The notes beneath the pieces are model-generated. The model did no database searches and was not told where the DNA came from. It saw only the letters and a list, made by a program, of their open reading frames with translations. A stretch of 64,000 nt of DNA, from positions 62,001 through 126,000 of the forward strand of contig JADZAP010000009.1 in NCBI GenBank assembly GCA_020852705.1, read 5' to 3'. The stretch's first letter is position 1. Each line of letters starts with the position of its first letter. The DNA comes from Ignavibacteria bacterium. Its GTDB lineage: Bacteria; Bacteroidota; Ignavibacteria; Tepidaquicellales; OLB5. Below are positions 29,428 to 49,980 of the stretch, piece by piece. The position numbers and the translations under genes were made by a program.

Positions 29428-29973
29428 TTATTTATTATATTTCTTAAGATACTTTACACTTTTAATAAGCTGCTGAGCCTCTTCATATCGTTTTGATGTT
29501 GGCGGAATCCGTTTAAGGTAATAAACAGCTTTATCATATTTTTTTTCACTAATATATTTTGCACCAATAATATATTTATCTTCATCAGAAAGATCTTTTG
29601 TGTCTTCTTCATTTGCCGTTTCATTAACTTTTTCTTCTGATTTTTTCTCCTCTGGAGGATTAACCATTTTGTTTATTTTTTCCTCAAACTTTTTTTCAAC
29701 TGTGTCAGTGCTTTTAGAAATCAGGAAGAAAACTGCACCTGCCCCTGCTGCTACAAGAAATAATACAGCAATTACTATAAATTTTGTTCGGCTTTTAACG
29801 GATGTTGGATTTTTTTTACCCGTGCTTCTGAAAGGATTATCATAAAATGGTTTAATATATGTTCTGTAATATTCGGGATCTGCCTGCTGATAATGTTCTG
29901 CAAGTTCATCAAAATACTGACGGCTGTTTTGCCAGTAAAACTCTAAATCTTCTTTAGACGGTCCGTTTGACAT
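29428..29973 (-). CDS. Hypothetical membrane protein with TPR-like C-terminus
   Basis: The 181 residues contain an N-terminal acidic and aromatic region (YWQNSRQYFDELAEHYQQAD), one membrane helix (FIVIAVLFLVAAGAGAVFFL, about 65-84), an acidic Lys/Glu-rich linker (EEKKSEEKVNETANEEDTKD) and a C-terminal helical pair (YISEKKYDKAVYYLKRIPP) resembling one TPR repeat. No family recognised. It may be a scaffold in the inner membrane; no neighbour gives a clue. Confidence 0.7.
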   Translation of the reverse strand: MSNGPSKEDLEFYWQNSRQYFDELAEHYQQADPEYYRTYIKPFYDNPFRSTGKKNPTSVKSRTKFIVIAVLFLVAAGAGAVFFLISKSTDTVEKKFEEKINKMVNPPEEKKSEEKVNETANEEDTKDLSDEDKYIIGAKYISEKKYDKAVYYLKRIPPTSKRYEEAQQLIKSVKYLKKYNK

Positions 29974-30095: not shown

Positions 30096-30125
30096 TTGAC
30101 TTATAAAATCTATTTATTATATTTG
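30096..30125 (+). promoter_or_regulatory. Promoter of the candidate ncRNA
   Basis: TTGAC (30096-30100), 17 bp spacer, TATATTTG (30118-30125): a near-perfect Bacteroidota sigma-A promoter. No protein gene starts within 400 bp downstream, which points to an RNA product. Confidence 0.7.
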
Positions 30126-30129
30126 TAAC

Positions 30130-30255
30130 AGACTGATATAAAAAGTTCATTTAAAAAAGTCAAGATTTTGCAGCAGGAGTTAGCTAGGTAAGGGTGGCTA
30201 ACGTTTTTAGTACGAACGCTCCCAGTGTTCCGAAAAAACCTGCTGCATTTTTTTT
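30130..30255 (+). ncRNA. Candidate structured small RNA (unidentified)
   Basis: Bounded by its own promoter (30096-30125) and a T8 run at 30248-30255. The fold reads as an outer 9 bp stem (TGCAGCAGG 30169-30177 / CCTGCTGCA 30239-30247), a hairpin GTTAGC/GCTAAC (30179-30184/30197-30202) and a terminal arm GAACGCT-CCC-AGTGTTC (30214-30230), the arm being extended by T5/A5 pairing (30204-30208 with 30233-30237). Together this is a three-way junction whose outer stem doubles as the terminator. It lacks the GGAAG/AGCA loop of SRP RNA, and it does not look like 6S, tmRNA or a riboswitch class I know. It may act alone or as a leader of the suf operon 290 bp downstream. Confidence 0.6.
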
Positions 30256-30281
30256 GTCCAAAATTGAAAATTAAACAAAAA

Positions 30282-30305
30282 AGCCGGTTTTTGACCGGTA
30301 TTTTT
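30282..30305. terminator. Second terminator after the candidate ncRNA
   Basis: CCGGT (30284-30288) pairs with ACCGG (30294-30298), loop TTTTG, followed by TATTTTT. On the opposite strand it is followed by T6, so it can act in both directions and insulates the RNA from the suf operon. Confidence 0.65.
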
Positions 30306-30473
30306 CATTTAGACAATATTTTTCCATTATAACTTTAACAATAAAAATATAAAGATTTAAGATTTTTTCTGTTTTGAAAAATATTAATATCTTTTCACAT
30401 TAATATAGTTTCATTTCTGTTTGAAAATGTGTTATGCAAAATAATTCTTTTAATTTATCCCAATTTTTTAATC

Positions 30474-30546: not shown

Positions 30547-31998
30547 ATGAGTACAGAAGTTGAAAACGTTGAAGAACTTACTTTAAAAGAATACAAGTAT
30601 GGTTTTGAAACAGATATTGAAACCGATGTTATACCAAAAGGACTGAATGAAGAAATTATAAAGTTAATCAGTTCTAAAAAAAATGAACCCGAATGGATGC
30701 TAGAATGGCGTTTAAAAGCTTACAAACACTGGCTGACAATTATGGATAATGAACCTTCATGGGCTAATATAAAACATCCTAAAGTTGATTTTCAGGATAT
30801 AATTTATTATGCTGCACCAAAAAAGAAACCTGAACTTAAATCATTAGATGAAGTTGACCCCGAACTTTTAAAAACTTTTGAAAAGCTTGGCATTTCTTTA
30901 CAGGAACAGAAACGTTTAACAGGTGTTGCAGTTGATGCAGTTTTTGATAGTGTATCAGTTACAACAACATTTCAGGAGGAGCTTTCAAAATTAGGTATAA
31001 TTTTTTGCTCAATGAGCGAAGCAATTAAAAATCACCCAGAGCTTGTTAAAAAATATTTAGGTTCAGTTGTTCCATACACAGATAATTATTATGCAGCTCT
31101 TAATTCAGCAGTGTTCAGTGATGGCTCTTTTTGTTTTATACCCAAAGGTGTAAGATGCCCAATGGAGCTTTCAACCTACTTCAGAATAAACACAAGCGGC
31201 ACCGGACAGTTTGAACGCACACTTCTGATTGCAGATGGTGGCGGTTATGTGAGCTATCTTGAAGGCTGTACAGCGCCCGTGAGAGATGAAAATCAGCTGC
31301 ATGCTGCAGTTGTTGAACTTGTTGCTCATGATAATGCAACAATTAAATATTCAACTGTGCAGAACTGGTATCCCGGCGATAAAGAAGGCAATGGCGGTAT
31401 TTATAATTTTGTTACCAAGCGCGGTGCATGCCGTGGAGTTAACTCAAAGATAACATGGACCCAAGTAGAAACCGGGTCTGCTATAACATGGAAATATCCA
31501 AGCTGCATTCTGCAGGGCGATAATTCAATTGGTGAATTTTATTCAGTAGCTGTAACAAACAACAAACAGCAGGCAGATACTGGTACAAAAATGATTCATT
31601 TAGGAAAAAATACAAAAAGTACAATTGTATCAAAGGGTATTTCTGCAGGAAAGAGCAACAATTCATACCGCGGACTTGTACGTGTTCATAAAAATGCTGC
31701 AAATGCCCGAAATTTTACTCAGTGTGATTCATTGTTGATTGGCGATAGATGCGGTGCTCATACTTTTCCGTATATTGAAGTTTGCAATAAAACAGCTAAA
31801 GTAGAGCACGAAGCAACGACATCAAAAATCGGAGAAGACCAGCTGTTTTATTTAAGGCAGCGGGGTATTTCACAGGAAGATGCAATTAATATGATTGTAA
31901 ATGGTTATTGCAAAGATGTGTTCCGTGAACTGCCTATGGAGTTTGCAGTGGAAGCTCAGAAACTTCTGAGCATTTCTCTTGAAGGAAGTGTTGGTTAA
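30547..31998 (+). CDS. sufB: Fe-S cluster assembly protein SufB
   Basis: Core subunit of the SufBCD scaffold that builds iron-sulfur clusters in the cytoplasm. The 483 residues fit the family, with the N-terminal region containing [14 protein letters not shown] and a right-handed beta-helix core containing [20 protein letters not shown] and [18 protein letters not shown]. The C-terminal [20 protein letters not shown] is the SufB/D signature. It opens an eight-gene SUF operon and has its own promoter. The Cys and His used for persulfide relay are expected in the core but were not individually assigned. Confidence 0.97.
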
Positions 31999-49573: not shown

Positions 49574-49590
49574 GAAATTAAAAACAATTA

Positions 49591-49980
49591 AAGGAAAGCT
49601 CATAAGCCGGATTCTGTTAATAAAATACTTTATGTATTTTACCTGCAGCCATTTATCTATGCAGCCTACCCTGTATCACACTGCCAAAGGCAGATTCAAG
49701 CGGGCAGCCTGATGGTGATACTATACACGGCTTTGCACTCATGTGTGGTTTATCTTGCAGCTCATATTGCTATGAGCACGGTGGTCTCTTACACCGCCTT
49801 TTCACCTTTACCTGCAATAAACCTGAAAGAAAATTACAGGAAGTTTATTTTCTGTGATACTATCAGTTACAACGGGTTTGCCCTGCTGTACCCGCGTTTT
49901 CACACGGCACATTGCCCTGGAGTGTCCGGACTTTCCTCTTGTAAGCCAAATGCTTAAAGCGGCTGCAAGAGCTTTCCTTT
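49591..49980 (-). ncRNA. rnpB: RNase P RNA (class A)
   Basis: Catalytic RNA that cuts the 5' leader of pre-tRNAs. On the minus strand the P4 element GAGGAAAGTCCGGAC is clear (49924-49938) and the conserved 3' element AACAGAATCCGGCTTAT is at 49603-49619. The P1 stem GGAAAGCTC (49969-49977, minus sense) pairs with GAGCTTTCC (49593-49601), setting the ends at about 49591 and 49980, some 390 nt, the usual size. No protein gene overlaps it; the open frames here are chance. Confidence 0.97.

Follow-up and report, generated by a model that had tools for sequence, protein, structure and literature searches.

Between a divergent gene and sufB, the 64,000-nt stretch of Ignavibacteria DNA analysed here (the window; GenBank assembly GCA_020852705.1, contig JADZAP010000009.1, positions 62,001 to 126,000) holds a segment that a preliminary description had read as an unassigned structured RNA equipped with a promoter and terminator of its own, possibly connected with Fe-S regulation. 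The locus raises the question of whether this is a free-standing RNA or a control element of the suf genes, and to which RNA family it belongs.

Organisation of the locus

Window positions 30170-30246 were assigned to a structured noncoding RNA core of ~77 nt, which runs into a T8 tail and is preceded by a leader of ~38-40 nt and a promoter of the RNA's own, of the Bacteroidota-like TTG/TAnnTTTG type (Table 1). The promoter, the three stems, the T8 tail and the second, bidirectional terminator of the preliminary description were all recovered where it had placed them, P3 as first described being GAACGCT/AGTGTTC (30214-30220/30224-30230). A fourth helix, an internal AGUA/GAA motif, a boxA-like leader element of the relatives and paralogous copies were added. 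P1 and a T-rich tail are present in every complete copy. Relatives have an opposite-strand gene that runs towards the RNA from its 3' side; the window lacks this gene.

The RNA had been described as noncoding, and the alignment agreed. Most copies have an open GTG frame, yet its changes follow the stems and are mostly non-synonymous, and the frame is shifted in one copy (L016). Conservation as a peptide was rejected on these grounds. With its own promoter and terminator, compensatory changes in its stems and no conserved reading frame, the locus has the properties of a free-standing structured noncoding RNA, as had been proposed.

Table 1. Features of the RNA locus in window coordinates.
Feature	Position	Strand	Details and evidence
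Promoter	30096-30125	+	TTGAC 30096-30100, 17-nt spacer, TATATTTG 30118-30125; sequence and consensus scan
Leader, ~38 nt	30131-30168	+	5' end inferred from promoter; holds GTTCATTT 30145-30152
P1 5' strand, rising arm of terminator stem	30169-30177	+	TGCAGCAGG, paired with CCTGCTGCA 30239-30247; two-sided compensatory changes at 6 of 9 pairs
P2 hairpin, 6 bp	30179-30202	+	GTTAGC/GCTAAC 30179-30184/30197-30202; covariation at 5 of 6 pairs
P2 loop, 12 nt	30185-30196	+	UAGGUAAGGGUG; near-invariant, sole exception one degenerate copy
P3a 5' strand	30205-30208	+	Partner 30235-30238; 97% paired; U-A/C-G/A-U exchange at one position
AGUA strand of putative bulged-G (loop E/S-turn-like) motif	30209-30212	+	Opposite GAA; near-invariant columns
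P3b hairpin, 7-8 bp	30213-30231	+	CCC triloop, CU/AG closure (CUCCCAG 30219-30225); 6 of 8 pairs covary
GAA strand of putative bulged-G motif	30232-30234	+	Conserved columns
P3a 3' strand	30235-30238	+	Covariation
Intrinsic terminator	30239-30255	+	P1 3' strand 30239-30247 and T8 30248-30255; formed by closing helix
Second terminator, bidirectional	30283-30299	.	Predicted on both strands

Fold and covariation

The 89-nt RNA gave a folding energy of -32.1 kcal/mol (z = -3.4), which was equalled by none of 200 shuffled sequences. Comparative support for the fold far exceeds this energy support. RNAalifold returned 24 pairs with two-sided change at 16. P3a and one further closing pair of P3b were added from reading the alignment, yielding a structure of 27 pairs. 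Across 18 distinct sequences 94.0% of pair cells were kept (94-95% when the 16-sequence set is included), against 36-52% in a control with slid partners, and the covariation score was 0.487 against 0.07-0.11 with partners slid. Covariation of the stems in relatives had been named beforehand as the test of the fold, and this test was strongly passed. Two-sided compensatory changes were found at 19 of the 27 pairs (shuffle mean 11.2; 19 reached in 0 of 500 shuffles), shuffle counts on the fold not being probabilities because the sequences compared share ancestry; all carrier genomes except two belong to one genus.

Covariation was found in all four helices. At the second pair of P3a, copies have U-A, C-G or A-U, and L016 has an extra base on each side. 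P3a arises unprompted in the minimum-energy folds of three copies (L016, L023 and L067); the minimum-energy fold of the window copy lacks it, and RNAalifold did not report it. The overall predicted fold is a three-way junction of P1, P2 and a P3 arm carrying the internal AGUA/GAA motif. AGUA opposite GAA is the usual sequence of a bulged-G/loop-E motif, and the assignment is putative here. The most conserved positions of the RNA are unpaired and comprise the P2 loop, CGUU...UUAGUA, CUCCCAG and GAA.

Two further pairings were considered and set aside. Kissing between the P2 and P3 loops (GGG/CCC) is permitted by the sequence, but no covariation supports it. Pairing of the leader GUUCUUU with the 3' strand of P3a is perfect in L013 and L014 only and is not sustained elsewhere (alignment by eye).

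Family identity and distribution

The preliminary description had proposed an Rfam scan, and none of the 4227 families of Rfam 15 matched the region at gathering score. With E values up to 10, the best match to the region scored 21.3 bits against a 40-bit threshold and lay outside the core; matches of this kind are at chance level. RNase P RNA alone was matched at gathering score in the whole window, outside the region (49587-49979, minus strand, class A, 204 bits). The earlier judgement that the RNA is not SRP RNA, RNase P RNA, 6S RNA, tmRNA or a known riboswitch was upheld, since SRP RNA is encoded separately elsewhere in the genome (G000:C18, 70.8 bits), the RNase P RNA gene has its own place in the window, and the others gave no Rfam match.

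Bacterial small SRP RNA (RF00169) is, like the new RNA, short, stable and free-standing, but it is a single hairpin where the new RNA is a three-way junction, and RF00169 was unmatched at any threshold used. 6S RNA, also free-standing, has ~180 nt and forms a long helix with a central bubble, whereas the new RNA is a three-way junction of 77 nt without an Rfam match. There is also a likeness in kind to candidate motifs of comparative genomics (such as those of PMC2864571), which are likewise lineage-limited structured RNAs found by covariation and without known role; the new RNA is unmatched by any Rfam 15 family.

A DNA search found the RNA in every genome sampled from the window's taxonomic family (15 of 15), and a covariance model (R1) found it in the same 15, at 1-5 copies each. 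Carriers in the GTDB collection are Ignavibacteria or Chlorobi MAGs, including Chlorobi bacterium OLB5. The RNA was not found in 29 genomes of the sister family of the order, where weak matches reached at most 29 bits over ~35-70 nt; those displayed as alignments cover little besides P1 and the T-run. Samples at class level (149 genomes) and phylum level (395), searched with stricter filters, held nothing outside the family beyond the level seen in the sister family. This is a real and previously uncatalogued RNA family, confined to one Ignavibacteria family in the sampled genomes. It is well supported, lies outside Rfam 15 and is universal in the sampled genomes of that family of uncultured bacteria. 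Phage, plasmid and viral collections held no matches to the RNA, and spread by those routes was rejected on that basis. Two pattern matches outside Ignavibacteria (L085 and L089) were dismissed as chance, the model giving nothing for the first and 10 bits for the second.

Gene neighbourhood

In the window the start codon of sufB lies at 30547, ~300 nt 3' of the RNA. Nine relatives share the home locus; there, sufB begins ~2.5-2.6 kb past the RNA, separated from it by an ORF of ~485 aa and, in most of the nine, also by one or two small opposite-strand genes that face the RNA. In a tenth (G001) the distance is ~2 kb. The proximity in the window is best explained by loss of the intervening genes, which would also account for the leftover bidirectional terminator. 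The suggested connection with Fe-S regulation was not borne out, sufB being distant in the ten relatives and other copies adjoining unrelated genes, and control of suf was rejected on this gene order. The neighbour kept at the home locus in most genomes is instead the divergent upstream gene (29428-29973 in the window), for which no confident Pfam match was found. In the one genome of genus g3, the RNA adjoins a ychF-like gene rather than the usual home locus.

The same gene order bears on whether the RNA is a riboswitch or attenuator, its junction sensing a ligand that stabilises P1 and with it the terminator. Such a mechanism would suit a three-way junction whose joining and loop regions are conserved, a P1 fused with the terminator, and a leader resembling that of the family's SAM riboswitch. 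P1 is, however, long and G+C-rich and therefore stable unaided, and in the window it is backed by a second terminator. In the relatives checked, ~0.9 kb separates the home RNA from the next clear same-strand gene downstream, and the other copies have no consistent downstream gene. Because P1 is a strong terminator with another behind it and nothing consistent lies downstream, we hold this mechanism to be improbable. The conserved downstream pathway gene that marks a cis-regulatory riboswitch was not found, the neighbours differing from copy to copy. Purine-class three-way-junction riboswitches share with the new RNA a P1/P2/P3 junction in which loops and joining strands are conserved. The new RNA differs from them in a closing helix that is a stable terminator, a P3 arm far longer than P2, and the lack of both an Rfam match and a conserved downstream gene.

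Leader and boxA-like element

TTGAC and TATATTTG precede each of the 14 home-locus copies that were compared. GTTCTTT is found in 13 of these 14 leaders, 23-36 nt 5' of P1, against 0.06 expected after shuffling, a contrast that overstates independence because the genomes are related; home-locus copies come mostly from one genus. The window copy is the lone exception, with GTTCATTT, a degenerate form one base off the boxA core. GTTCTTT forms the core of the boxA consensus of gamma-proteobacteria, GYTCTTTAANA (PMC5725501); the AACA part is not preserved cleanly in the home-locus leaders. Three genomes also have the motif in their 16S leaders, and two have it in the 16S-23S spacer.

As controls, GTTCTTT by itself is not rare (28 occurrences in 64 kb), and it was not seen upstream of the RNase P and SRP RNA genes of the same genome. 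The combined pattern of promoter and GTTCTTT gave 13 matches in six genomes and none in the reversed control. Five of the 13 are the RNA described here, three are leaders of a SAM riboswitch, and the remainder are apparently single cases. The occurrence before the SAM riboswitch means that the arrangement is not confined to rRNA. We read the motif as a putative boxA. If this element is real, a small RNA and a riboswitch leader would join the targets of the Nus complex beyond rRNA in this phylum; the gamma-proteobacterial boxA survey did not, by its own statement, consider noncoding RNAs (PMC5725501).

The three SAM riboswitch loci (L142, G007:C2:901009; L145, G014:C20:5928; L146, G000:C52:30919) consist of a TTGAC/TAnnTTTG promoter, GTTCTTT as a putative boxA-like element, the riboswitch (RF00162) and a terminator, and the gene 3' of them resembles a trans-sulphuration enzyme (named by eye). 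At L141 (G004:C1:867597-867658 and ~250 nt beyond), promoter and GTTCTTT are followed by an apparent second structured leader, unmatched in Rfam at gathering score, whose terminator CCCTCGAAC...GTTCGAGGG-T7 lies upstream of a 163-aa ORF.

The RNA might act on rRNA or ribosome assembly, the P2 loop pairing with CCUUACCUA of 16S and boxA tying synthesis to rRNA output. A perfect 9-nt complement in 16S near 955-965 and the GTTCTTT common to the RNA and rRNA leaders would agree with this. A 9-nt match would arise by chance with a probability of 0.9-1.4% in 16S by itself and of 5-13.5% across the tested region of the rRNA operon; once the operon is counted, as one of several searches, the match is not significant, and the complementarity was set aside. 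The presence of promoter and GTTCTTT before the SAM riboswitch also weighs against this role, to which we attach little probability.

Paralogous copies and proposed function

Copies elsewhere are placed between uvrA and the rpsF region and beside ychF (all three genes named by eye), and no gene is consistently downstream across copies. TAnnTTTG starts 10-13 nt 5' of P1 in 5 of 10 non-home copies, a spacing consistent with a transcription start at P1, which suggests that such paralogues are autonomous genes too. The paralogues are without the GTTCTTT leader element, therefore not all copies need it. Some copies begin 9-62 nt past a gene end and might arise as fragments of a 3' UTR. Two copies, L038 and L034, are near genes of mobile-element type (a type IV coupling protein; ThiF, DUF2958 and HsdM).

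That extra copies end genes or sit amid such mobile elements (T4SS coupling protein; HsdM/DUF2958/ThiF), and that one has a degenerate loop, would be expected of a dispersed terminator-like repeat maintained by copying rather than by a function in trans. Against such a repeat, conservation of the unpaired loops is at least as strict as that of the stems, a home copy with its own promoter is present in nearly every genome, and there are only 1-5 copies per genome. We regard a repeat as highly improbable.

A base-pairing sRNA has more in its favour, although we still think it unlikely. Its loops (GGUAAGGG; UCCC) would pair with the ribosome-binding regions of several mRNAs, in the manner of the C-rich-loop sRNAs of Firmicutes, and two invariant exposed loops, an own promoter and terminator and a multicopy family would all fit. 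With LhrC, a multicopy sRNA of Listeria (PMC4132741, where the UCCC motif is discussed), the new RNA has in common a C-rich exposed loop and several copies per genome. The new RNA differs in its G-rich second loop, in belonging to another phylum and in showing no target enrichment, complements of the P2 loop (at most one mismatch, irrespective of gene position) numbering 27 in the genome against 25 in the reversed control. The fold is different as well. A search that recovered Hfq in 5 of 14 control genomes gave none in this genome, and the loops of paralogues do not diverge as seeds with different targets would.

The reading we favour, with somewhat better than even confidence, is an autonomous trans-acting noncoding RNA of one Ignavibacteria family whose invariant loops contact a conserved partner. 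At the level of sequence, the fold, invariant loops, promoter, terminator, family-wide presence and lack of a conserved downstream gene are established. The promoter would give a transcript of ~125 nt that folds into the three-way junction, and P1 with the T-run would end transcription, making the RNA a complete unit from which read-through to a downstream gene is not expected. The P2 loop, the CUCCCAG hairpin end and the bulged-G-like motif would form the contact surface. A protein or another stable RNA would be a likelier partner than a range of mRNAs, since copies that are not orthologous retain the loops while their stems drift. The leader of the home locus would carry a putative boxA-like NusB/S10 site, and the RNA may then be transcribed by an rRNA-like elongation complex. 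The fixed fold, the two invariant exposed sites and the promoter give enough detail for direct tests. A bolder version, which we consider quite unlikely, would make this a new class of stable bacterial RNA with a compact three-way junction, transcribed under an rRNA-like boxA antitermination signal, on which a core machine such as ribosome assembly or RNA polymerase depends as its obligate partner in this one family, and which mobile elements have also acquired.

A degenerate copy of the RNA, L067 / L134 (G008:C84:1527-1617), 13 nt past a gene end, has an 11-nt P2 loop, UAGUUAGGGUA, and a weaker fold, and may be a decaying or specialised paralogue. A second syntenic copy common to two genomes (L032 and L035) lies, in both, upstream of the same secreted-looking ORF of ~300 aa, itself without a Pfam match.
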